Positions 14,461 through 36,373 of a stretch of DNA of 36,373 bases are shown in pieces; positions within the stretch are counted from its first letter, which is position 1; the number at the start of each line of letters is the position of its first letter. The notes under the pieces were generated by a model, which was not told the origin of the DNA, did no database searches, and saw nothing but the letters and a program-made list of their open reading frames with translations. Source of the DNA: an uncultured Pseudomonadota bacterium (GTDB lineage: Bacteria > Pseudomonadota > Alphaproteobacteria > RF32 > CAG-239); NCBI GenBank assembly GCA_949297185.1, contig CASFRM010000018.1, forward strand, positions 1-36,373, written 5' to 3'. A program made the position numbers and the translations under genes.

Positions 14461-15420
14461 TTAATCTACAAATTTGATTGAAAACTTGTCATTGGTAGCT
14501 TCCGGAGCTTTAAATACAGTGTTTTGAATATTTAATTCTGCTGATTTTTTTTGCTCAAGAATGTTTATAATCATATCAAACTCGGCAACAGAGGCATATT
14601 GCATTACAACTTTGCCGCCACCTTGTTTGTTGGGAGTTATTTTTATGCGCAAACCTAAATTTTTGTTTAAGTTTTGCTCTATATCTAAAATATCTCCGTT
14701 TTTTTGCGGGCGAGGTTTTTTGGTGTTAGTGGCAGGAGCCTCTTTTTGTTTGGCAACTAAAGCCTCGGTATCACGAACATTTAAATCCTCTTTGATTATT
14801 TTTTCGGCCAATGCTTCGGCATTGTCTAGTCCGACTAAGCAGCGTGCGTGTCCGGCAGACAATTTGCCTTGGCTTACCATTTCCTGAACTTTTTCCGGCA
14901 GGCTCAAAAGTCTTAGCGTATTGGCAACATAGCTACGTGATTTTCCAACTGTTGAAGCTATCTTTTCTTGGGTGTGAGAAAAAGTATCAATTAATTTTTG
15001 ATAGGCGTTGGCTTCTTCTATGGCTGATAAATTTTCACGCAAGAGATTTTCGATAAGAGCTATTTCCAGAACTTCGTTATCTGAAAGTTCTTTTATAATT
15101 ACCGGTACTTCGGTCAAGCCGGCAATTTTGGAGGCTCTTAATCTTCTTTCGCCGGCAATAAGTTCGTATCCATCTGCGGCCTTGCGTACGATAAGCGGTT
15201 GCAACACTCCTTTTTCTTTTATGGAATCGGCTAGGGCGTTTATCGCATCTTCATCAAAATCTTTACGCGGTTGAAAATTACTAATGTGAATATCATTAAC
15301 ATTTACATTGTTATCTGCTTTTTGATATGAAGTTTCGGTATTAACGATATCCTCGTTCATTTCACCGAGCAGGGCTTCAAGTCCGCGACCTAAACTCTTT
15401 TTTTTGTTTTCTTCTAGCAT
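14461..15420 (-). CDS. parB: chromosome partitioning protein ParB
   Basis: CTP-dependent DNA clamp that loads at parS and spreads to form the segregation complex next to the origin. From the start: LGRGLEALLGE (10-20), the ParB N-terminal domain with the CTP-binding GERRLRAS (90-97) and ENLLRENLS (124-132), then a helix-turn-helix (about 153-172) that reads parS. A proline/lysine linker and a C-terminal dimerisation domain end it. The ATG at 15420 overlaps the parA stop (ATGCTAG), giving 319 residues; longer in-frame extension would run into parA. Three candidate parS sites occur in this window, in rsmG, the PHP gene and mnmG. Confidence 0.96.
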   Translation of the reverse strand: MLEENKKKSLGRGLEALLGEMNEDIVNTETSYQKADNNVNVNDIHISNFQPRKDFDEDAINALADSIKEKGVLQPLIVRKAADGYELIAGERRLRASKIAGLTEVPVIIKELSDNEVLEIALIENLLRENLSAIEEANAYQKLIDTFSHTQEKIASTVGKSRSYVANTLRLLSLPEKVQEMVSQGKLSAGHARCLVGLDNAEALAEKIIKEDLNVRDTEALVAKQKEAPATNTKKPRPQKNGDILDIEQNLNKNLGLRIKITPNKQGGGKVVMQYASVAEFDMIINILEQKKSAELNIQNTVFKAPEATNDKFSIKFVD

Positions 15421-16193
15421 GCGATTAACTCTCTTTCTCTTTTTAATACTTCTTTGGTAAGTCCGATATAGGCTTGCGAACCAGGACATTTGAAATCATA
15501 AATCAAAACAGGTTTGCCATGCGACGGAGCTTCTGATATGCGAACATTGCGCGGAATGACAGTATCATAAACCTTTTTACCAAAAAAGTTTCTGACATCA
15601 TCTTCAACCATTTGGGTTAAATTATTGCGCTTGTCGTACATGGTGAGGACAACACCTTGCAAAACCAATGAAGGGTTAAAGTTTTTCTTAATAACATTTA
15701 TGTTGCGAATTAGATCAGAAACACCTTCAAGGGCTAAAAATTCGCATTGCAACGGAACAATAACAGCATCTGCGGCAACTAAAGCATTAACTGTTATAAG
15801 ACTTAATGACGGAGGGCAATCTATGAGAATGTAGTCATAGTTGACGGCTTCTTTATATAAGGCTTTTTTGAGTGCAAATTCGCGTTTTTCGACATCAACC
15901 AATTCTATTTCGGCGGCGGCCAAGTCCGGCGATGATGGTATTATGGAGAAGTTTGGAATTTCGGTCCAAACCACAGCATCGGTCAGACGGCGGTTACCAA
16001 GCAACACATCGTATGAAGACGGCATACTGCCTTTTTTATCAACTCCCATTGAAGTTGAGGCGTTGCCTTGAGGGTCGAGGTCGATTACCAAAACCTTTTT
16101 GCCGGCTGCAGCCATTGCAGTGGCTACATTGACCGTAGTTGTGGTTTTACCGACACCGCCTTTGCGGTTGGCAACAGCTAAAATTCTTGGCAT
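15414..16193 (-). CDS. parA: chromosome partitioning ATPase ParA
   Basis: Deviant Walker-type ATPase that forms a DNA-bound gradient used by ParB-parS to move the origin region. The deviant Walker A is KGGVGKTTT (11-19) with the signature Lys11. YILIDCPPSL supplies Walker B, and LQCEFLALEGVSDL is typical of chromosomal ParA. At 259 residues it is a small ParA without an N-terminal HTH, as for chromosomal forms. It overlaps rsmG by 16 bases and parB by 7, so rsmG-parA-parB and the FTR-like gene form one operon. Confidence 0.96.
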   Translation of the reverse strand: MPRILAVANRKGGVGKTTTTVNVATAMAAAGKKVLVIDLDPQGNASTSMGVDKKGSMPSSYDVLLGNRRLTDAVVWTEIPNFSIIPSSPDLAAAEIELVDVEKREFALKKALYKEAVNYDYILIDCPPSLSLITVNALVAADAVIVPLQCEFLALEGVSDLIRNINVIKKNFNPSLVLQGVVLTMYDKRNNLTQMVEDDVRNFFGKKVYDTVIPRNVRISEAPSHGKPVLIYDFKCPGSQAYIGLTKEVLKRERELIAC

Positions 16194-16819
16194 TTATTTC
16201 CTCCTTTTTTCTTTGATATATCGGTTATTATCAAAATTTTGCCTTCAGCAGAAAAATCGCTTGGCTGTATTTGGCACTTAAACTTCCATTGCTTGTGAGC
16301 TTCTTTTAGCTCTTGAGCATAGTTTTGACCTTTGGGAAAAATACAAACGGTTTTTTGATGACAGAAGGGCAGGGCATATTTGAGCAAATCTGAAAGATTA
16401 GTCATCGCTCTTGATGTAATTACATCAAACTTACGGTTCTTGATATTTTCGATTCTGCCGTTGATTATTTCGACATCGGTGGATGTTTGCGATGCCACTT
16501 CATTTAAATACAGCGTTTTCTTTTTTATGCTTTCAACCAGCGTAACTTTTAAATACGGCGTTCTATCCTTGGAAGCGATAGCAATAACCATCCCCGGAAA
16601 TCCAGCACCAGAGCCAAAATCAACCAAAGTTTCCGCTTGATTCGGCAAGTACTGCATAAGCTGTAAAGAGTCAAGAAAATGCCTATTCCAAGCATCACTT
16701 AAACTTGAGTTGCTAACCAGATTAAATTTCTGCTGCCACTCATTGAGTAATGACTGGTAGGTTTTTAATTGCTCGATTGTTTCACATGAAACATTGTATT
16801 TTTCTGCTAAATTTTTCAT
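16178..16819 (-). CDS. rsmG: 16S rRNA (guanine527-N7)-methyltransferase
   Basis: GidB family enzyme that makes m7G527 in 16S rRNA; loss gives low-level streptomycin resistance in several bacteria. The SAM-binding loop FGSGAGFPG is at 68-76, and NRHFLDSL and SRAMTNLSDLL are family motifs. The 213 residues are typical. The coding sequence contains a parS-like palindrome at 16778-16793 near its 5' end. First gene of the rsmG-parA-parB unit; in many alphaproteobacteria mnmG lies directly upstream, but here PHP and HD genes intervene. Confidence 0.94.
   Translation of the reverse strand: MKNLAEKYNVSCETIEQLKTYQSLLNEWQQKFNLVSNSSLSDAWNRHFLDSLQLMQYLPNQAETLVDFGSGAGFPGMVIAIASKDRTPYLKVTLVESIKKKTLYLNEVASQTSTDVEIINGRIENIKNRKFDVITSRAMTNLSDLLKYALPFCHQKTVCIFPKGQNYAQELKEAHKQWKFKCQIQPSDFSAEGKILIITDISKKKGGNKCQEF
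16778..16793. promoter_or_regulatory. parS site 1 (inside rsmG)
   Basis: TGTTTCACATGAAACA differs from the bacterial parS consensus TGTTNCACGTGAAACA at one central base. It lies in the 5' coding part of rsmG, about 7.9 kb from the proposed origin and beside parA-parB. The same 16-mer occurs inverted at 18725-18740. Confidence 0.88.
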
Positions 16820-16938: not shown

Positions 16939-17766
16939 CTATTTATGAAAAGAAAAGCGATTCTTACATCCTAATTCGGATAATTTTTCCTCAACTTCGG
17001 CAAAATACGAGCCCACATGATTCGCAAAATGAGAGTCGTCACTAATCAACAACGGAATATCTTGTTTTATCATTTTTTCGACCAGCCACCAGTCAGGGTA
17101 GGGGCGACCGATGCGCCTTAGGCCGTTTGTATTTACTTCGCATGCGGTGCCGGTTGACGACAAGGCTTCGACTACCTTATATTTATATTCATTCCAAGGT
17201 TCTGTTATACATAAGTCAAATTGGCAGCAATAGTCAAAATGGGCTATAAAATCAAAATATCCGCTTTTTATGCTTGATTCGGTGTTTAGCCAATAGTTTC
17301 GCAATAACTCTTCTTTTTCTTCTGCGGTAATACTTTCCGGAAGATTATTTAGGTGATATATGTTACACATGAAACTTTCATCGGCACTTCTGATAAAATG
17401 TGTGGCTCCGATTATATAGTCCGGCTTGAGTTCTTTTATAGCTTTTTCGAAACTGTTGCGCCACTCTGCAGACGGAAAAAAATCTACTTCCATACCTTTG
17501 AGAACTTTTATTTTATGATGCTCTGCTGCCGCGTCTATATCTTCATAATTTCGTTTATATACATCAATGAGCTTATTTAAATCACCAAACATTTGTGGGT
17601 GTATAAACGGGATTTTGGCAATAGTAGGGTGATAAATAAAGTGATTGCTTATGCCGAACTCTTCAAAGCCGAAAGCTTCGGCTGCAGAAATCATTTCTTC
17701 GGCGGTATTGCGGCCGTCAAATATTCCGGCAAAATTGGTATGACTGTGGTAGCTAAATTTTTGCAT
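16939..17766 (-). CDS. PHP-domain phosphoesterase (histidinol-phosphatase-like)
   Basis: Metal-dependent phosphoesterase of the PHP superfamily, closest in layout to HisK-type histidinol-phosphatases. Metal ligands visible: His7 and His9 in YHSHTNF, SNHF (about 40-43), an internal GMEVDFF with acidic ligands, IGATHF, and SDDSH near the C terminus. The 275 residues suit the family. No histidine-biosynthesis gene is nearby, so the substrate is uncertain. A degenerate parS-like site lies inside the gene (17361-17376). It is 59 bases downstream of the HD-domain gene and about 120 bases before rsmG, within the run that usually joins mnmG to rsmG. Confidence 0.72.
   Translation of the reverse strand: MQKFSYHSHTNFAGIFDGRNTAEEMISAAEAFGFEEFGISNHFIYHPTIAKIPFIHPQMFGDLNKLIDVYKRNYEDIDAAAEHHKIKVLKGMEVDFFPSAEWRNSFEKAIKELKPDYIIGATHFIRSADESFMCNIYHLNNLPESITAEEKEELLRNYWLNTESSIKSGYFDFIAHFDYCCQFDLCITEPWNEYKYKVVEALSSTGTACEVNTNGLRRIGRPYPDWWLVEKMIKQDIPLLISDDSHFANHVGSYFAEVEEKLSELGCKNRFSFHK
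17361..17376. promoter_or_regulatory. parS-like site 2 (degenerate, inside the PHP gene)
   Basis: TGTTACACATGAAACT agrees with TGTTNCACGTGAAACA except for the central base and the last base. It shares the CACATGAAAC half with site 1 and lies between sites 1 and 3, which supports but does not prove ParB binding. Confidence 0.55.
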
Positions 17767-17825: not shown

Positions 17826-18431
17826 TTATATGCCTAAAATTTTATAAATATCGCAACCGCATTTTTCATCAAAGTACTTTTTATTAGCGGCGGTATATTT
17901 TTCTAAATTTGCCGTTTGTAATACAGATAAATTATATCTTTGGCGAATTCCTGCAATTCGCTCTTGAAATGATATCTTATTCATACCCTCAAAAAACATA
18001 TCACACAGCTGTATTAAACGGTCATAATCATCATATTCTAGCTTTGAAATAATTGATTTTGCCTCTTGCAAATCTTTGATACTATATGAAGAGTACTCGT
18101 TAAAAGCAAAACTATGATCAGGAAATGAATGAGTGATACATATTCTGGCAACATCATCAAAACCTTTTCTCTTCATTTCTTGGTAACCAAAAATAAAATG
18201 TGCGGTTCCTGATTTTTTTTCATTTTGAATTTTTCCGTAATCATGAAGCAATCCCAAAACATAAGCCTTGTTACCTTCAATACCGCAAGATAATGCAATC
18301 TTTTCGGCGGATTCTGCAACACCTGATGTGTGAAATATGTATTCTTTGGCTTTCTCTTTATTCCATTCGCAGTTTCCGCTTAAGCTTTCTTGCCAAAGAG
18401 ATATGGCTGTTGTTATATCTGGGTAACTCAT
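17826..18431 (-). CDS. HD-domain phosphohydrolase
   Basis: HD superfamily metal-dependent phosphohydrolase. The ligand set is His34 ([16 protein letters not shown]), His63-Asp64 ([10 protein letters not shown]) and His101 ([12 protein letters not shown]). The 201 residues form essentially a single HD domain with a C-terminal helical extension. The substrate cannot be read from the sequence; nucleotides and cyclic dinucleotides are common for the superfamily. The start overlaps the mnmG stop by four bases (ATGA type), so it is translationally coupled to mnmG. PHP phosphoesterase and rsmG lie downstream. Confidence 0.75.
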
Positions 18432-20272
18432 TTTTTGATGTATCCTAAAAGTGCGGTGATTGCTGCCGGAGTTACTCCGGGGATGCGAGAGGCTTCACCT
18501 ATGGTTGCAGGACGGACAGCGGAAAGCTTACTTATCATCTCGCGCGAAAGTCCGCCGATTTTGGTATAATCTATATCTTCTCTTATTTTTAAATTCTCGT
18601 CTTTTTTGAAGACTTCAATATCAGCAAGTTGTCTTTTTATATAGCCGGAATATCTGGCCTCTATTTCTACTTGTTCGTATACATCCAAAGGGATTTTGGC
18701 AACTTCAGGAAACATGTTGCATATTGTTTCATGTGAAACATCGTTGTACGAAAGAATGTTGAATAAGGTGCGTTTGCTACCATCCTTCTTAACATTTATA
18801 TTGTTATCTGCCAGAACATCGTAGCTTACAAAAGTTTCTTCACTAAACTTTTTGAAATCAGAAACAGCTTGCTTTTTAGCTTTAAATACACCGTATCTTA
18901 ATTCTGAAACACAACCTATTTCATAACCTTTTTCGGTTAGCCGCATATCGGCATTGTCCGAACGCAAAAATAATCGATATTCCGAACGCGAAGTAAACAT
19001 ACGATACGGTTCATCGACACCCTTGGTGATTAAATCGTCTACCATTACTCCAATGTAGGCTTCACTTCGGTCAATAACAAACTCGCCACCGTCTTTAGTT
19101 TTAAGAGCAGCATTGATACCAGCCAATAAGCCTTGGGCTGCAGCTTCTTCATAGCCGGTAGTACCGTTAATCTGACCAGCTAAAAATAATCCAGAAATCT
19201 TTTTGGTTTCTAAGCAATGATTTAATTCTTTGGGATCAACATAGTCGTACTCAATAGCATAGGCCGGACGCAGAATTTTGACATTCTCCAAGCCTTTCAT
19301 GGTGTGTATAAAGGCGTCTTGGACATCTGCCGGCAAAGAGGTTGATATACCGTTGGGGTAGACAACATCGGTATTTAATCCTTCTGGTTCCAAGAAAATT
19401 TGGTGACTGGTACGGTCGGCAAATTTTACTAATTTGTCTTCAATACTGGGACAATATCTCGGTCCAATACCGGTTATCAGACCGGAAAACAGCGCACATT
19501 TAGAGAAATTATCACGGATTATCTTATGAGTTTCTTCATTGGTGTGTGTAATGTAACAACTTATTTGCGGTGTGGTAATCTCGGTGGTTAAAAAAGAAAA
19601 AGGGCAGGGTACTTTATCACCGTCTTGTCTTTCTAATATATCCCAATTTATGGTTTTACCGTCAAGTCTGGCCGGTGTGCCGGTTTTGAGACGACCGACT
19701 TTTAGTCCTTTTTGCTTTAAATACGGTGTTATGCCGCTACAAGAAACTTCTCCAACCCTGCCGCCAATGGTTGCTTCGTGTCCGGTAAACATTACGCCGT
19801 TGAGGAATGTTCCGGTGGTAAGAACTACTGCTTTGGCTCTTATCTCACCCTTATCGGCCAAAATAACTCCGCAAACGCTATCTTCGGCAAAAATTAAACC
19901 TTCTGCGGCTGCCTCTATTATTTCAAGATTTTTTTGTTCTGATAAAGCTTCTTGCATATATTTCTTATACAATTCGCGGTCGGCTTGAGCTCTGGGGCCT
20001 CTTACCGCAGGTCCTTTAGATGCATTGAGCATTCGAAACTGAATACCGGCCTTATCGATTACTCTGCCCATCAAACCGTCAAGAGCATCTATTTCTCTGA
20101 CCAAATGTCCTTTGCCTAATCCGCCGATTGCCGGATTGCACGACATTTCACCTATCGTATCAAATTTATGGGTTACAAGTGCCGTGTCGGCTCCCATGCG
20201 AGCTGCTGCTGCCGCAGCTTCGCATCCGGCATGTCCGCCGCCGATAACTATTACATCGTAAAAATCTTTCAT
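18428..20272 (-). CDS. mnmG: tRNA uridine-5-carboxymethylaminomethyl modification enzyme MnmG
   Basis: FAD-dependent partner of MnmE that adds the (carboxymethyl)aminomethyl group to U34 of tRNAs reading split codon boxes. The dinucleotide-binding motif GGGHAG is at 11-16. The [17 protein letters not shown] and [17 protein letters not shown] stretches, TGTFLNG and the helical C-terminal domain that docks MnmE are all present. At 614 residues it is full length. A parS site (18725-18740) is embedded in its 3' half. Its own promoter probably lies in the gap that also carries the mnmE terminator. Confidence 0.96.
18725..18740. promoter_or_regulatory. parS site 3 (inside mnmG)
   Basis: TGTTTCATGTGAAACA is the exact reverse complement of site 1 and one base off consensus. 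It lies about 6 kb from the proposed origin. Two identical 16-mers of this kind within 2 kb next to parAB are very unlikely by chance. Confidence 0.88.
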
Positions 20273-20401: not shown

Positions 20402-21745
20402 CTATTTACCAATACAAAAATCACCGAATATCTTATCTAAAATCTCATCAACTTCTATCCTGCCGGTGATTTTACCCAAAGCTCTAGCGGCAAGACGGAC
20501 ATCTTCCGCGGTTAACTCAATCTCTTTGTCAAAACCAAAGTTCTGCAGATTTTCCAAAACATCTTTCAAGGCTTCTCTATAACGGCTTCTGGTAATCAAA
20601 AGATTGGAGTTTGAAGTAAAACGGTCTTTGATATTTTGGGATATTGCCTGTAATACCTTATCTACACCTTGTTTTTGTTTGGCAGAGATTACCAAACAGC
20701 CTGCTTTTTCCAATTCAAAACATTGTTCCGGAGATATTTTATCACTCTTATTGGCAACAAAAAGCGCCTTATCTTTTAATGAATCTCTTATTTTATCAAA
20801 CACTTGAACCGTGTCTGATGATGCATCAAATAAACATATTACTAAATCTGCATCATGGATTTTACCATAAGCTATATCTATGCCTTTCTTTTCGATTTCC
20901 TCTTCGGTTTCTCTTAAACCTGCCGTATCGGTAAACATTACCGGATAACCGTTCAAATCTAAGTGGACATCTATGGCATCACGCGTAGTACCGGCAATAT
21001 CAGAAACTATAACCGCGTCTCTTTTTACTATGGCATTTAATAAACTTGATTTGCCGGCATTTGGAGCTCCGACAATAACTACTCTAAAGCCTTCGCGTAA
21101 TCTTTCTCCTATAGAATCACTGTTCAAATGTTCTTTTATGCCGTTTTCTAGTTTAAATACAGTGTTATTCATATTATCTATTACCGAAGAAGGTATGTCT
21201 TCATCGGGAAAATCGATATATGCCTCCAGATGAGCCAATATCTTTACCAACTCGGAACGCCAATTTTCGTATAAGTTCTTTAATCCGCCTTCCATCTGAC
21301 GCATGGCATATTTTTGTTGCTCTGAAGTTTCGGAATCTATTAAATCAGCCAAACCCTCTGCTTCGGTCAAATCCATTTTACCATTATAAAAAGCGCGTTT
21401 GGAATATTCTCCTGGTTCGGCCATACGAAAACCTTCGATTTGTGATAAACAATTCATAACTGAACTTATTACAGCCTTGGAACCGTGGGTTTGAAATTCA
21501 ACAATATCTTCTCCGGTAAAAGAATTCGGAGCCTTAAAATACAAAACCAAACTCTCATCCAAATTTTCGGTTCTATCCAAATTGTGAAGTTTGGAAAAAT
21601 AGGCATAACGCGGTTTGATATTTTTTATATCAATATCGGTCATCTGTTCAACTGCTTTTAGTGCTTCGGCTCCGGAAATTCTGATTACGGCAACACCAGA
21701 TTTTCCGTAAACCGTCGATAAGGCATAAATAGTTTGGTTTGTCAC
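20402..21745 (-). CDS. mnmE: tRNA modification GTPase MnmE
   Basis: GTPase that, with MnmG, modifies the wobble uridine of tRNAs. Domains: an N-terminal tetrahydrofolate-binding domain (IYALST...VAVIRISG), a helical domain and an inserted G domain with GAPNAGKS (226-233), GTTRD (252-256), DTAG (273-276) and NKSD (332-335). The C-terminal catalytic cysteine is in CIGK (444-447). I chose the GTG at 21745, giving 447 residues, because GGAG precedes it at good spacing and family homology begins there; longer in-frame extension to 21877 is basic and without similarity to the family. Divergent from a HAD phosphatase gene. Confidence 0.95.
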   Translation of the reverse strand: MTNQTIYALSTVYGKSGVAVIRISGAEALKAVEQMTDIDIKNIKPRYAYFSKLHNLDRTENLDESLVLYFKAPNSFTGEDIVEFQTHGSKAVISSVMNCLSQIEGFRMAEPGEYSKRAFYNGKMDLTEAEGLADLIDSETSEQQKYAMRQMEGGLKNLYENWRSELVKILAHLEAYIDFPDEDIPSSVIDNMNNTVFKLENGIKEHLNSDSIGERLREGFRVVIVGAPNAGKSSLLNAIVKRDAVIVSDIAGTTRDAIDVHLDLNGYPVMFTDTAGLRETEEEIEKKGIDIAYGKIHDADLVICLFDASSDTVQVFDKIRDSLKDKALFVANKSDKISPEQCFELEKAGCLVISAKQKQGVDKVLQAISQNIKDRFTSNSNLLITRSRYREALKDVLENLQNFGFDKEIELTAEDVRLAARALGKITGRIEVDEILDKIFGDFCIGK

Positions 21746-21936
21746 TTTTTCTCTCCTCTTATTGCTTTTTTTATAACGAGATTGTTTCATTAAAGCAAGT
21801 TTTAAAAGCGACTCCAAAAAAAAGCCGTTTTTTTGACTTCTGAGAGATGATTTATGTTTTTTTAATAAAACTATCATAGACTAATTGAAAAACCTCCGTA
21901 CGGCCTTTAGAATTAATCGATTTTTTTGGGGTAAAA
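21746..21936. other. divergent intergenic region, mnmE/HAD
   Basis: About 190 AT-rich bases separate mnmE (leftward) from the HAD gene (rightward) and must carry promoters for both. The mnmE ribosome site AGGAGAG is visible at its left end. I see no RNA gene, repeat or convincing operator. Confidence 0.5.
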
Positions 21937-23191: not shown

Positions 23192-24445
23192 TTAAGAATT
23201 CATATTAGCAAAGAAATCTTTATTATCTTTGCTTACTCTTAATTTATCAAGCAAGAATTCCATGCCATCGGTCATACCCATCTGCATTAATACTCGACGC
23301 AATACCCACATTTTCGTTAGTGTATCTTTGTCTACCAATAACTCTTCTTTACGAGTACCGGAACGAGTTATATCAATGGTTGGGAATAATCTCTTATCGG
23401 TTAATTTTCTATCCAAAATTATTTCTGAGTTACCAGTTCCTTTGAATTCTTCGAAAATAACTTCATCCATTCTTGAGCCGGTATCAATCAGAGCTGTGGC
23501 TATAATGGTCAAAGATCCGCCTTCTTCTACATTTCTGGCAGCACCTAAAAGTCTTTTTGGTCTTTGTAATGCATTGGCATCAACACCACCTGTTAAAACT
23601 TTACCAGATGAAGGAATTACCGTATTATAAGCTCGGCCTAAACGAGTGATGGAATCCAGTAAAATAACAACATCTTTTTTGTTTTCGACCAATCTTTTGG
23701 CTTTTTCTATTACCATCTCGGCTACTTGAACATGTCTTGATGCCGGTTCATCAAAGGTTGATGATATAACTTCGCCTTTAACAGAACGTGTCATATCGGT
23801 AACTTCTTCCGGGCGTTCGTCTATTAACAATACCATCAAGTAACATTCAGGGTGATTGGTTGCTATAGCGTGTGCTATATTTTGCAACATTACGGTTTTA
23901 CCTGTTCTAGGAGGTGCTACAATCAAACCTCTTTGGCCTTTGCCTTGCGGTGAGATTAAATCAATTACTCTGGTAGTATAATCTTTGTCGCCGCATATAA
24001 TGTCAAAGTTTAACTTCTCGGTCGGATATAATGGCGTTAAGTTATCAAAATTAACTCTTAATTTTGATTTTTCCGGGTCGTCAAAGTTTATTCTGTCTAC
24101 TTTTACTAAAGCAAAGTATTTCTCATTTTCTTTTGGGGCTCTGATTTCACCTTCAACCGTATCTCCGGTTCTTAAACCAAATCTTTTTACTTGAGAAGGG
24201 GATACATATATATCGTCTGGTCCGGCTAAATAGTTTGATTCAGATGATCTTAAAAATCCAAAACCGTCGGGCATTACCTCAATGGTGCCTTCTCCGGTGA
24301 TAGCTTCGTCTTCGCCAACGATTTTTTTTAATATACCAAACATTAAGTCTTGTTTGCGCATTGAAGAAGCATCATCAATGCCTAGTTCTTCGGCTTGAGC
24401 TAACAGCTCAGCAGGAGATTTCTGTTTTAAATCTTTTAAATTCAT
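23192..24445 (-). CDS. rho: transcription termination factor Rho
   Basis: Hexameric RNA-dependent ATPase/helicase. In order: the Rho N-terminal helical domain (residues 1-42), an RNA-binding cold-shock-like domain with RNP1 GFGFLR (61-66), Walker A APPRTGKT (177-184), Walker [17 protein letters not shown], and the Q and R loop region ([15 protein letters not shown]). The 417 residues are standard. It is the last leftward gene before the proposed origin, the same position it occupies in several alphaproteobacteria. Confidence 0.97.
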
Positions 24446-24712
24446 GTTTACCTTTGTTTTGGGAAATTTAGTAAGAAATGTGAATATCTGATTACTCTGC
24501 TTTTATATATTGTTTTTTGTTTGTTTGTCAATTTATTTTATCAACACCCTGCCTTCCCTATCAATATATTTTAAAAAATATAGTTGTTATTTGTATATCG
24601 TTGTGAGTCTTGTGGATTAAATTTTTGTTTGCAGGGATATACACAGATTTTTGAGTTGTTGATAATTTGATAGAATCCAAATATTAACTTTTTTTAATAA
24701 TTTGAATCTTCG

Positions 24713-24727
24713 TTAATATTTCGTTAA
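24713..24727. promoter_or_regulatory. CtrA-like TTAA-N7-TTAA motif in the putative origin
   Basis: TTAA (24713-24716) and TTAA (24724-24727) are seven bases apart, the spacing of CtrA sites that repress replication in Caulobacter. The motif is simple and the DNA AT-rich, so chance is a serious alternative. Confidence 0.25.
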
Positions 24728-24864
24728 TAATTGTTTTTTTTGCCTACTGTTGATAATTTGAGATATCAACAACGTATTAATAAACAAATCTCTTGTTCAT
24801 AAGTGGTAAAATTAAATTTAATATTGTGAGAATAAGTTAAACTGCATAGCGGGGTTTGCTTGTT

Positions 24865-24873
24865 TTATGCACA
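24865..24873 (+). promoter_or_regulatory. perfect DnaA box TTATGCACA
   Basis: Exact match to the DnaA-box consensus TTATNCACA, about 55 bases upstream of coaE in the proposed origin. It is the only perfect box in the region; the others have one mismatch. Confidence 0.7.
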
Positions 24874-24927
24874 GGAAAACCGTTAATTGTGTAAAACTTA
24901 CTTAACTTATTGATTGGTGGTAAAAAA

Positions 24928-25512
24928 ATGAAGCTTGTTGCTATTACCGGTTCAATAGGATGCGGAAAAACTACCTTGGCAAATATTGTAAGGGGTCTTG
25001 GTTATGCCGTGTATGATGTAGATGCTTGGGTAAGAAAAATATATAATAATAAAAGTTTTTTGTCAGAACTTGAAAAATTGTTTCCGGAAAGTGTGAAAAA
25101 CGGAGTTGCTGATAAGAGGTATCTCAGAAATATAGTGTTTTCTGATAAGGAAAAATTAAAAAAATTAGAAAATATTATATATCCTATTCTTAATGCTAAA
25201 ATAAAAAATATTATAAATAAAAAAGCTAAAGATAATTATGTGGCATTTTTGGATATTGCGTTGCTATTTGAGAAAAATTGGGATAAATATTGCGATATTA
25301 TAATATTGGCAGATGTTGATTATAACATTCAAAAACAACGAGTTATGAAAAGAGATAATGTATCGGCAGAAGATTTTGATAAAATAAATAATGCTCAAAT
25401 GAGTAATAGTTATAAAAAGTATTTGTCTGATATTGTAATTGACACAAATAAGCCTTTTAATATTCTTAAGGTGGAATTAATTAATATCATAAAAGATTTG
25501 GAAGAAAATTAA
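24928..25512 (+). CDS. coaE: dephospho-CoA kinase
   Basis: Last enzyme of coenzyme A synthesis: ATP-dependent phosphorylation of the 3'-hydroxyl of dephospho-CoA. P-loop GSIGCGKT spans residues 8-15. The DVDAWVRKIY segment, IYPILNAK and LDIALLFEKNWDKYCD are family hallmarks. The ATG at 24928 follows a GGTGG ribosome site; an in-frame TTG at 24910 is less likely. At 194 residues it is normal. The stop and the dnaQ start overlap (TAATG). First rightward gene from the proposed origin; coaE-dnaQ is a conserved alphaproteobacterial pair, usually preceded by maf, which here is at 30810 instead. Confidence 0.94.
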   Translation: MKLVAITGSIGCGKTTLANIVRGLGYAVYDVDAWVRKIYNNKSFLSELEKLFPESVKNGVADKRYLRNIVFSDKEKLKKLENIIYPILNAKIKNIINKKAKDNYVAFLDIALLFEKNWDKYCDIIILADVDYNIQKQRVMKRDNVSAEDFDKINNAQMSNSYKKYLSDIVIDTNKPFNILKVELINIIKDLEEN

Positions 25513-26201
25513 TGGTAAGAGAAATTGTTTTTGATACGGAAACTACTGGATTTGAATATGCAAAAGGGCATAGACTTATAGAAATAGGTGCGGTTGAACT
25601 TATTAACCATCTGCCAACCGGTAAAACTTTTCATCAATATATAAATCCGGAAAGAGAAGTTCCTGAAGATGCGGTTAAAGTGCACGGTCTTACTTATGAA
25701 ATATTAAAAGATTATCCTACTTTTGATAAAGTTGCCGATAAGTGGTTGGAGTTTATCGGTGATGATAAGTTAGTGGCGCATAATGCTTCTTTTGATATGA
25801 ATTTTGTTAATTATGAGTTGAAACAAATTAATAAAAGGCAAATGTCTTGGGATAATTGTATCGATACTTTGGAAATTGCCAGAGCTATGTTTCCAGGGGC
25901 AAGATGTAGTCTTGATGCTTTGTGTAAAAGATTTGAGATTGACAATAGTGCTCGTACTTTTCACGGAGCTTTGCTTGATGCTCAGCTTTTGTCTGAAGTT
26001 TATCTTGAGTTGCTCGGCGGAAAAGAGCCTAGTTTGTTATTGGATGCCAAAAAACAACAGAATAAAATTAATATTGTAAAAGAAGATAATAAAAGTAATA
26101 ATTTCAGAGAGCCAAGAGTTTTTAATGTTGATGAAAATTTTGAAGAACAGCATCGGCAGTTTTTGGAAAAAAATGTAAAAAATCCAATTTGGAATCTTTG
26201 A
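25512..26201 (+). CDS. dnaQ: DNA polymerase III epsilon subunit (3'-5' proofreading exonuclease)
   Basis: DEDDh-family exonuclease that proofreads for the replicative polymerase. Catalytic residues visible: Asp8 and Glu10 (FDTETTG), Asp95 (HNASFDMNF), His151 and Asp156 (HGALLDAQLL). After the exonuclease domain (about 1-175) a polar linker leads to a C-terminal tail that would contact the alpha polymerase subunit. The 229 residues are typical for alphaproteobacteria. The start is coupled to the coaE stop by one overlapping base. Confidence 0.95.
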   Translation: MVREIVFDTETTGFEYAKGHRLIEIGAVELINHLPTGKTFHQYINPEREVPEDAVKVHGLTYEILKDYPTFDKVADKWLEFIGDDKLVAHNASFDMNFVNYELKQINKRQMSWDNCIDTLEIARAMFPGARCSLDALCKRFEIDNSARTFHGALLDAQLLSEVYLELLGGKEPSLLLDAKKQQNKINIVKEDNKSNNFREPRVFNVDENFEEQHRQFLEKNVKNPIWNL

Positions 26202-30809: not shown

Positions 30810-31376
30810 ATGAAAAATTTTATTTTGGCATCACAATCGCCGCAGAGAATAGCTTTGCTTAAGCAAATAGGTTTTGAACCAAAAAAAATTGAGCCTGCTG
30901 ATATAGATGAAACACCTAAAAAAGATGAAAAAGCCAGTCAGTATGTTAAAAGAATGGCAAGAGAAAAAGCTTTGGCCGTAGCTGAGAAAAACTGCGGTGA
31001 AGTAATTCTGGCTTCTGATACGGTAGTGGTGTGCAATAATAAAATAATTCAAAAATCTAAAAATGATGAAGAACAGGCGGATGTTATGCGCTTGCTTTCC
31101 GGAAAAAGCCACAGAGTTTTAACTGCGGTGTGTGTGGTTGATAAAAATAAAAAGGTAGCTATCAGATTAAATACTACCAAAATAAAAATGAAACATATGT
31201 CAGAAAAAGAAGTTAGGGACTATGTTGCTTCAAAAGAATGGGTTGGATGTGCCGGATATAAAATAGAAGGATGCTTGGCTGCTTTGGTTTTGAATATGAA
31301 CGGATCTTACAGCGGAGTGGTTGGTTTGCCTTTGTATGAAGCTAAATCTTTGTTAAACGGAGCCGGAGTAAATTGA
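30810..31376 (+). CDS. maf: Maf-family nucleoside triphosphate pyrophosphatase
   Basis: House-cleaning pyrophosphatase that hydrolyses non-canonical nucleotides; overproduction can inhibit septum formation. Signature LASQSPQR (6-13; most members have SPRR), SDTVV with the catalytic Asp70 (69-73), and a late GSYSGVVGLPLYE. The 188 residues are typical. In other alphaproteobacteria maf precedes rng and yacG after infA; here dksA and a terminator precede it. The stop lies just before the rng start, so maf-rng-yacG is one operon. Confidence 0.92.
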   Translation: MKNFILASQSPQRIALLKQIGFEPKKIEPADIDETPKKDEKASQYVKRMAREKALAVAEKNCGEVILASDTVVVCNNKIIQKSKNDEEQADVMRLLSGKSHRVLTAVCVVDKNKKVAIRLNTTKIKMKHMSEKEVRDYVASKEWVGCAGYKIEGCLAALVLNMNGSYSGVVGLPLYEAKSLLNGAGVN

Positions 31377-34785: not shown

Positions 34786-36373
34786 ATGATAAAAAGCAGT
34801 AAGTTTGTAATGGGGCTTGGTTTTTTGTTATGTAGTACAACGGCTTTGGCTAATGTCGATATTAGCGGTCGTCCACAGGTTGTGGTTGATGATTGGGCAA
34901 AATTTGAAACAGAGCTACGGAATCCGGCAAACGTCGGCGGTGTAATTATATTGGGGCAGGATATAACTGCCAATACCGATGTTAGTATATCAGTTGATGA
35001 TTTGGTTATTGACGGAGGCGGACACAAGATAATAGGTGGTGCCGGAGGTGGAAGAATTTATGCTAATGGCGGTGCTATTGTGCAGAATGTGTCGTTTGAA
35101 GGTTTTGATAAGCGAATTTTTAATCTTGTGAGTTCGTCACCTAATTATGTAAAAGAAATAAATGCCGATTTTATAAATAATACCGGTGGGGCTATTTTTA
35201 TAAATAATACCGGTGGGGCTATATACAATGGATATCAGACGATTTTAGATAAAATCGCCGGTAATTTCGTGGGTAATAGTGCGGTAGATGGAAGTTACGG
35301 TGGAGCTATTTACAATAGTGATGATACTGGGCTCAAAAGTAGTATAGGAAGCATAGAGGGACTTTTTGAGGGTAATAGTGCGAGATTCGGTGGTGCGATT
35401 TATAATAAGGGCAATATAGATAGTATAAGAGGAGATTTTAGCGGTAACTATGCTAAACATATTTCAGATTCTGTATATGGTGGTGCGATTTATAATGCAA
35501 AGTATAGTCCTTATGATAGTACATTTGTTGAAAGCATAATAAATAATGTAAGTGGAGATTTTAGCGGTAACTATGCTAAATCAGAAATAGGTAGTGCCCA
35601 AGGTGGTGCGATTTATAATGAATGCACAATGACACTCGTAAACAGCAGCTTCTATGATAATTACGTACAAACAGATGTTTTGAAAGATAGCTCAGAAGGG
35701 CGATTAACACAAGGCGGTGCGATTTACAATGTCGGAAATTTAACGGTCAGAGCCGATGGCGGGGAGTCAATATTTTCCGGTAATAAGGTAATTTGGGGTG
35801 ATAGAGAAGATTCTTCAGCAATTTATTTGGGTGGTTCTGATAGTTATTCAACACGATTGAACCTTGATGCTCAACATAATGGTTTGATTCAGTTTGATGA
35901 TAAAATCACTTCAATGGGGCAAATCGATACCTATTTAATAGAGTTAGAGCAAATCGGAGCTACTGTTACCGAAGATGGTAATGGCGGATATTATGCTGAG
36001 AAAGATGGGGAAAAGTATCATATTCCATTTGAAAATGGTGTTTTTAAAGCTGTGATGGATCAGCAAGAAGGTATGAGTAAAGATGAAGTTGATGGAATGT
36101 TAGCAAGTATTCCTCCTGAAGTGAATGCCGAGATTAAGCAAGAAGGTGATAATTATTATATTACAGCGAGCGTGGATGGAATGTCTGTGCTTCTTGAGAT
36201 AATCAAGCAGCCAGATGGCTCTTATACGATGACGCAAAGAGTTAATGTTTCATCATATGGAAGCAATATAGCAGTTACCGGCGACAGCGGCAGTAAGGTT
36301 GTTTTCAATAATGCGATTGAAAAAGTGGCTAAGATAGATATATCGGGCACGAATGTAGATGTAAATTCTGGAG
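34786..36373 (+). CDS. Pmp/autotransporter-like surface protein, 5' part
   Basis: The reading frame stays open from ATG 34786 to the window end (529 codons, incomplete). A signal peptide ends at about residue 24 (TTALA). After VVIDGGGHKIIGG comes a beta-helix-like stretch with repeated GGAI motifs: GGAIVQN, GGAIFIN, then six GGAIYN copies, each preceded by N-S/N-Y-A type segments. GGA-I repeats are the hallmark of polymorphic membrane proteins such as chlamydial Pmps, which are autotransporters. Residues from about 375 on have no such repeat. The C-terminal beta-barrel, if any, is outside the window. Internal DNA repeats suggest copy-number variation. Confidence 0.75.
   Translation, partial: MIKSSKFVMGLGFLLCSTTALANVDISGRPQVVVDDWAKFETELRNPANVGGVIILGQDITANTDVSISVDDLVIDGGGHKIIGGAGGGRIYANGGAIVQNVSFEGFDKRIFNLVSSSPNYVKEINADFINNTGGAIFINNTGGAIYNGYQTILDKIAGNFVGNSAVDGSYGGAIYNSDDTGLKSSIGSIEGLFEGNSARFGGAIYNKGNIDSIRGDFSGNYAKHISDSVYGGAIYNAKYSPYDSTFVESIINNVSGDFSGNYAKSEIGSAQGGAIYNECTMTLVNSSFYDNYVQTDVLKDSSEGRLTQGGAIYNVGNLTVRADGGESIFSGNKVIWGDREDSSAIYLGGSDSYSTRLNLDAQHNGLIQFDDKITSMGQIDTYLIELEQIGATVTEDGNGGYYAEKDGEKYHIPFENGVFKAVMDQQEGMSKDEVDGMLASIPPEVNAEIKQEGDNYYITASVDGMSVLLEIIKQPDGSYTMTQRVNVSSYGSNIAVTGDSGSKVVFNNAIEKVAKIDISGTNVDVNSG
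35170..35222 (+). repeat. 27-bp tandem duplication in the Pmp-like gene
   Basis: The 26-base sequence at 35170-35195 recurs exactly at 35197-35222, period 27 bases, so the nine residues FINNTGGAI occur twice in frame. Further copies of GGTGGTGCGATTTATAAT occur at about 35389, 35478 and 35601, and a 25-base GATTTTAGCGG... segment repeats at about 35434 and 35555. Confidence 0.9.

Follow-up and report, generated by a model that had tools for sequence, protein, structure and literature searches.

Probable chromosomal origin between rho and coaE in an uncultured gut alphaproteobacterium, with unequal strand composition on its two sides

Does replication of the chromosome of an uncultured gut alphaproteobacterium begin in the short region that separates its divergent rho and coaE genes? 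The window (the whole stretch of 36,373 nucleotides that was analysed) is contig C18 of a 1.51-Mb genome in 44 contigs, rated 94% complete. The initial annotation had proposed a probable chromosomal origin between these genes, in a gene-free, AT-rich region across which the coding strand switches, and the proposal is supported by a cluster of DnaA boxes, a skew split in three of four contigs and the same junction in 26 of 26 relatives' loci. The gap is very probably the chromosomal oriC of this 1.5-Mb organism. The features on which the argument depends are:

24446..24927, no strand: candidate oriC, the AT-rich rho-coaE intergenic gap (482 bp, 26% GC), with counterparts in relatives
23192..24445, minus: rho (TIGR00767 above cut-off)
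24928..25512, plus: coaE (TIGR00152 above cut-off)
25512..26201, plus: dnaQ (TIGR01406 above cut-off)
14461..15489, minus: parB (TIGR00180 above cut-off)
15414..16193, minus: parA-like gene (ParA-family matches, below curated cut-offs)
16178..16819, minus: rsmG (PF02527 GidB above cut-off)
18428..20272, minus: mnmG (TIGR00136 above cut-off)
20402..21877, minus: mnmE (NF003661 above cut-off)
30810..31376, plus: maf (TIGR00172 above cut-off)

In agreement with the initial annotation, rho on the minus strand lies to the left and coaE on the plus strand to the right, and the region between them is without an open reading frame of 80 or more amino acids, except for a possible TTG start in the coaE frame at 24910. 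The minus-strand order left of the gap is parB-parA-rsmG ... mnmG-mnmE ... rho, and the plus-strand order right of it is coaE-dnaQ ... fliX-dksA-maf-RNase. A perfect 27-bp tandem duplication occupies 35169-35222. An intergenic length of 200-1000 bp and a raised AT content are among the criteria for oriC in a comparative study (PMC1914354); the gap is 482 bp long (419-530 bp in 26 relatives), with 26% GC, and the GC content of 1-kb windows across the contig ranges from 26%, in the one that covers the gap and coaE, to 46%. Both hemE and maf had been described as absent. The former indeed has no match to PF01208 (uroporphyrinogen decarboxylase family) in a search of the whole 94%-complete genome, and a control search with PF01208 found a match in eight of 14 genomes, Caulobacter included; maf, on the other hand, is present in the window at 30810-31376. 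As far as an assembly rated 94% complete can show, hemE, and hence the usual origin flank, seems to have been lost from the genome.

A CoaE search of named genomes produced 30 loci, of which four from other phyla were dropped and 26 with alphaproteobacterial or proteobacterial titles (L034-L059, some from the cecum or colon of deer) were used; the 27 gaps referred to below are the window's gap and those of these 26 relatives. All 26 loci have divergent rho and coaE around a gap of 419-530 bp, the identity of which to the window's gap ranges from 0.48 to 0.93. Counts over loci overstate independence because several loci are near-identical or are duplicate contigs under two names (L036-L039 are mutually close, as are L046, L050 and L059). 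The 21 genomes of the same genus contain 16 usable loci (L005-L020), with rho adjoining coaE in 15 and the contig of L019 ending before rho could appear; four of the other genomes have no CoaE match and one has only a distant match. Homology of the boundary genes among close relatives, a further oriC criterion (PMC1914354), holds for rho and coaE in 26 of 26 loci, and the classical hemE flank is absent. In Caulobacter, Rickettsia, Wolbachia and most relatives, the origin boundary genes are reported to be hemE with COG1806 or COG1253, according to excerpts of the same study (PMC1914354). In L022, from another family of the same order, rho is divergent from coaE as in the window, and 10 of 12 more distant members of the class (L021, L023-L033) have a weak maf match (22-30% identity) upstream of coaE inside the 3.5-kb locus. 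Judged by these gene orders, the rho-coaE junction looks like the classical order from which hemE is missing and maf has moved out. A literature search found no paper joining replication origin, rho, coaE and Alphaproteobacteria.

DnaA-box-like sites in the gap were defined by the relaxed consensus TTATNCACA with at most one mismatch, alongside a strict consensus, TTATCCACA, with 200 dinucleotide shuffles as the null. The window's gap contains ten such sites, one exact to TTATNCACA (TTATGCACA, at 24865) and nine with one mismatch; its shuffles contain a mean of 1.12 and a maximum of five, and none of the 200 reaches ten. All 27 gaps have an excess of boxes, the observed count in each being matched by none of 200 shuffles. 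Eight of the window's box positions recur, with the strand unchanged, in 16 to 27 of the 27 aligned gaps:

24538..24546, plus: DnaA-box-like TTATCAACA, one mismatch to TTATNCACA; occupied in 25 of 27 gaps
24611..24619, minus: DnaA-box-like TAATCCACA; exact TTATCCACA in four relatives; occupied in 18 of 27
24637..24645, plus: DnaA-box-like ATATACACA; occupied in 19 of 27
24657..24665, minus: DnaA-box-like TTATCAACA in the first direct-repeat copy (24657-24670); occupied in 21 of 27
24748..24756, minus: DnaA-box-like TTATCAACA in the second direct-repeat copy (24748-24761); occupied in 16 of 27
24794..24802, minus: DnaA-box-like TTATGAACA; occupied in 21 of 27
24865..24873, plus: DnaA box TTATGCACA, exact to TTATNCACA; occupied in 27 of 27
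24888..24896, minus: DnaA-box-like TTTTACACA; occupied in 22 of 27

The other two boxes of the window (24479, 24827) are outside the positions kept among relatives, and alignment columns 432 and 454, occupied in 18 and 10 of the 27 gaps, have no box in the window. The direct repeat that the initial annotation placed in the core of the region is TGTTGATAATTTGA, each copy of which consists of a DnaA-box-like site plus its flank. The same annotation had counted one perfect and about five near-perfect boxes; the perfect one is exact under TTATNCACA only, and under TTATCCACA the gap has no exact copy and five with one mismatch. The strict consensus was rejected as an origin marker, since its 12 exact copies in the genome (control count, 14) include none in the window. 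When boxes are grouped in 500-bp clusters, the gap ranks first in the window (ten boxes; runner-up, three), in 520 kb of the related contig G002:C1 (eight; runner-up, four) and in G011:C1 over 394 kb, including 72 masked kb (nine; runner-up, four). DnaA sites denser than elsewhere, another oriC criterion (PMC1914354), are thus found in the stretches examined, about 0.96 Mb. The genome encodes DnaA over the curated cut-off. Box places in the organism's own genome were taken from 100 of 209, ending in C13; among those listed, three TTATTAACA sites lie just upstream of ctrA (G000:C12:16726-16778), two of them abutting in inverted orientation.

Sites of the CtrA-box form, TTAA-N7-TTAA, number 45 in 23 of the 27 gaps, the window's included, compared to 6.2 expected from shuffles, and are missing from the other four; TTAA pairs at the remaining spacings between 1 and 14 occur about as often as expected or less often, save for a spacing of 8 (13 versus 6.2). 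A copy that starts at alignment column 309 overlaps the DnaA-box position at column 318 in 15 of the 27 gaps, and the window is without that copy. The IHF consensus has one match in the window's gap and at least one in 21 of the 27 gaps, counts taken without a chance control.

24713..24727, plus: CtrA-box-like TTAA-N7-TTAA (TTAATATTTCGTTAA), the window's one copy
24903..24915, minus: match to the IHF consensus WATCAN5WTR, without chance control

Contig C12 carries a gene for CtrA (NF045991, 402.8 bits; cut-off, 350). TTAA-N7-TTAA sites and a CtrA protein, which are expected of a CtrA-controlled origin of the Caulobacter (Cori) type, are present in gap and genome, respectively. The genome also has matches to GcrA and to the RAMA domain known from CcrM, and none to ChpT (PF10090). 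The GcrA match (G000:C5:27081-27686, L104) crosses an in-frame TAA and may be an extended alignment or a broken gene.

Three parS-like places occur in the window, a number reached in none of 100 shuffles:

16778..16793, plus: parS-like TGTTTCACATGAAACA, one mismatch
17361..17376, plus: weaker parS-like site, three mismatches to the 16-mer
18725..18740, plus: parS-like TGTTTCATGTGAAACA, one mismatch

These are all of the genome's parS-like places, approximately 5.7-7.7 kb from the gap. The genome-wide number was discarded as evidence (three real versus three for the reversed control), and only the clustering in the window is informative.

The best skew split, defined as the single point on a 100-bp grid that best separates G/C composition, is at 24600 in the window (inside the gap), at 188700 in G002:C1 (gap, 188700-189189) and at 202700 in G011:C1 (gap, 202141-202635), which is to say in the gap or at most 70 bp from it in three of four contigs. 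The GC-skew shift that is also a criterion for oriC (PMC1914354) is accordingly seen in these three and not in G009:C1, where the all-base split and the cumulative minimum are both at 214.6 kb (214600), the gap itself being 60 kb away (153745-154208). The cumulative minima of the other contigs are outside the gap as well, at 21777 in the window (2.7 kb away), 126460 in G002:C1 and 205638 in G011:C1. The initial annotation had named a skew change elsewhere as evidence against an origin here; three contigs split at the gap, and G009:C1 and the window's cumulative minimum go the other way. It had also described a reversal of G/C bias, of which the change stands and the mirror image does not: mean skew in the window is -0.03 on the left and +0.30 on the right. 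With gene strands separated and 25-kb bins set at the gap, third-position skew differs between the two sides in all four contigs, G009:C1 included (coaE side, +0.2 to +0.4; rho side, -0.07 to +0.18). A per-locus fit of third-position skew, in which gene strand was a term and from which five of 27 loci were dropped for having too few genes, places the coaE side higher in 22 of 22. It replaced fourfold-site skew in the 10-kb flanks, which was confounded by gene strand (16 of 26 loci had enough sites, and right exceeded left in only 10). A high-GC genome in one contig (G034) had little skew and was uninformative as a control, its third-position component deviating from zero by no more than 0.08 in 19 of 20 stretches.

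In favor of oriC, then, are the array of boxes in a kept register, the CtrA-form sites, the conserved neighborhood, the change in strand composition, and the genes for DnaA and CtrA. Against it are the split 60 kb away in G009:C1, the cumulative minima outside the gap, a rho-side skew that is near zero or weakly negative and unmirrored, the four of 27 gaps that lack TTAA-N7-TTAA, and the failure to find ChpT in the genome. The gap might instead be a mere divergent promoter region for rho and coaE, regulated by DnaA and CtrA, with the true origin elsewhere, and a smaller group of boxes does precede an HU-like gene elsewhere in this genome; this is highly improbable, given ten boxes in the gap (eight to nine in relatives' contigs) versus at most four in any other 500-bp stretch of the approximately 0.96 Mb examined, a skew split and a flip of the octamer GCGGTGGT that coincide with the gap, and the presence of parAB, rsmG, mnmG and mnmE in the neighborhood. 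That box group (G000:C1:21262-21411, L144) comprises four DnaA-box-like sites, one of them exact TTATCCACA, and the HU-like gene was named by eye from its sequence.

In many bacteria oriC is located beside dnaA. An origin near dnaA on contig C10 would agree with this and with the skew of C10, which rises around 8-10 kb from roughly -0.03 to roughly +0.1, yet hardly any probability attaches to it: the densest 500-bp cluster in the 40 of 46 kb of C10 that were scanned has four boxes and is approximately 14 kb from dnaA, where there are two, and alphaproteobacterial origins are mostly flanked by hemE in the excerpted text of PMC1914354. The better-boxed origin linked to dnaA or hemE that the initial annotation had offered as a refutation was sought without success in the stretches scanned, hemE itself being undetected in the genome.

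The placement of the origin in the rho-coaE gap is well supported, and such an origin is of an ordinary sort: an oriC of alphaproteobacterial type in which the boundary genes are different and the CtrA-form sites are conserved. In a mechanism modeled on that of Caulobacter, DnaA would bind an array of approximately eight to ten mostly weak boxes and open AT-rich DNA, upon which the replicative helicase would load. CtrA may repress initiation at the gap, as in Caulobacter, its phosphorylated form occupying the TTAA-N7-TTAA site that overlaps a DnaA-box position in many relatives; and ParB on the parS-like sites about 5.7-7.7 kb away would help to move the new origin. The Cori gap of Caulobacter crescentus, between hemE and COG1806, is given as 404 bp (PMC1914354), similar to the 482 bp here, and its weak DnaA boxes are described as overlapped by CtrA sites (PMC1914354, PMC4468827), an overlap found here in 15 of 27 gaps. 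Unlike Cori, this gap is flanked by rho and coaE, with hemE undetected genome-wide; its boxes are mostly TTATCAACA-like, whereas Cori has two G-boxes; and it contains one TTAA-N7-TTAA in the window compared to five CtrA sites reported for Cori (PMC4468827). The origins of Rickettsia and of Wolbachia, Ehrlichia and Anaplasma (hemE with COG1806 or COG1253) resemble it in being AT-rich gaps of 383-620 bp with predicted DnaA, CtrA and IHF sites (PMC1914354), and differ from it in their boundary genes; three DnaA-like boxes are listed for wMel (PMC1914354), versus ten here by a looser counting rule.

Two equal forks are expected to give mirror-image skew. In the per-locus fit, the coaE side has a mean of +0.31 and the rho side +0.06, and the rho side is negative in only eight of 22 loci. 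Skew pooled across longer stretches is +0.23 (G002), +0.28 (G009) and +0.36 (G011) on the coaE side, and +0.007, +0.05 and -0.105 (beyond 25 kb), respectively, on the rho side. The sampled contigs of G002 are divided into a class of strong skew, 0.20-0.25 in size (the coaE side of C1, C3, 80-140 kb of C4, C5 and C7), and a class within 0.03 of zero (the rho side of C1, C2, C6 and C8); in G009 the strong class, 0.23-0.28, comprises C3, 60-140 kb of C4, C6 and C7, and the weak class, within 0.04 of zero, C2, 0-20 kb of C4 and C5. Exceptions inside the strong class are one low-GC stretch of C3 (L156), near zero, and the first stretch of C5, which is mixed. A dif-like site with at most two mismatches occurs once in six of seven genomes and twice in G011, where one copy is 3 kb from the gap; matches with three mismatches have no clear excess over control. 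The best dif-like sites are on contigs other than the origin's: that of G009 (C4:20016) is between a near-zero stretch and a strong stretch, and that of G002 (C4:79804) has a weak side sampled over 8 unmasked kb only. The weak-skew class looks like one whole replichore, although there is some circularity in this, contigs having been assigned to arms according to their skew.

Two oligomers behave differently across the gap. The octamer GCGGTGGT flips there, from 1/17 (plus/minus; rho side beyond 25 kb) to 29/0 (coaE side) in G002, from 2/8 to 7/1 in G011 and from 2/4 to 10/0 in G009; it is strongly polar and resembles a guide motif running from origin to terminus. The hexamer GAATCG, which contains the CcrM site GANTC, does not flip (77/16 on the rho side beyond 25 kb and 168/14 on the coaE side in G002; 57/8 and 42/5 in G011; 38/5 and 53/7 in G009). 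Its polarity holds in genes of either strand, with 80-97% on one strand in the larger polar contigs of G002, G009 and G011 and in G000:C10, and is the strongest non-flipping polarity among 1959 hexamers (z of 25, the next without a shared GAATC being about 10). Within 10 kb of the gap in 26 loci, GAATCG is neutral on the rho side (30/41) and polar on the coaE side (87/6); it is without clear polarity on C4 and C5 of G002 and C3, C4 and C5 of G009. The E. coli KOPS and Chi patterns were too rare or uninformative here. Among the matches listed in the literature on GANTC strand bias and replichores and on GC skew of one replichore, GAATCG polarity and one-armed skew are undescribed. The strong coaE-side skew, the near-zero rho side and the contrast between GAATCG and GCGGTGGT are unexpected and unexplained, and are of more interest to the specialist than the origin itself.

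An account of the unequal skew that is compatible with the origin supposes an ancestral inversion of the rho-side arm, from about -20 kb to dif, after which the skew of that arm is still relaxing through zero. Past about 25 kb from the gap on this arm, GAATCG has a polarity that suits an inverted segment, it is neutral in the stretch adjoining the gap, and fourfold sites of the window and relatives are near, not at, saturation (identical, 0.415 versus 0.272 expected for G002 and 0.408 versus 0.292 for G011). On the same arm, however, the polarity of GCGGTGGT is outward, and the arms of several species would need to be in a part-relaxed state simultaneously, so that an ancestral inversion is tentative, a possibility of the lesser sort. 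A patchwork of recent rho-side inversions is not favored, per-gene scatter being no larger there in three of four contigs and slightly larger in G011. The rho-side arm might be copied in mixed directions. It is doubtful, and rather improbable, that the two forks are non-equivalent to the extent that the main chromosome is often copied one way, the rightward fork continuing past dif through much of the other arm; a coaE-side skew that is strong whatever the gene direction, a rho-side skew of almost nil and a GAATCG that holds one direction across the origin and in most of the contigs sampled would agree with this, but the octamer GCGGTGGT keeps an origin-to-dif orientation on either arm. Excerpts of a study of Pseudoalteromonas chromids tie skew that departs from the two-arm pattern to one-way replication (PMC7858055). 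The unidirectional chromid is similar to the present case in that departure (PMC7858055) and different in that the main chromosome is concerned here, with the best dif-like sites on contigs other than the origin's, and in that one arm here is near zero instead of sharing the sign of the other.

With the origin very probably in the gap, the rho-coaE gene order serves as a rule for locating it in an uncultured group of gut alphaproteobacteria, and can assist in orienting and closing their genomes and in estimating growth from read depth. The group is another with CtrA-form sites at the origin; an excerpt of a review describes CtrA origin sites as unseen outside Caulobacter and possibly Rickettsia (PMC4468827), and such sites have been predicted, patchily, in Wolbachia and its relatives (PMC1914354). 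If the one-armed skew does reflect unequal forks, a main bacterial chromosome would depart from the rule of two symmetric forks.
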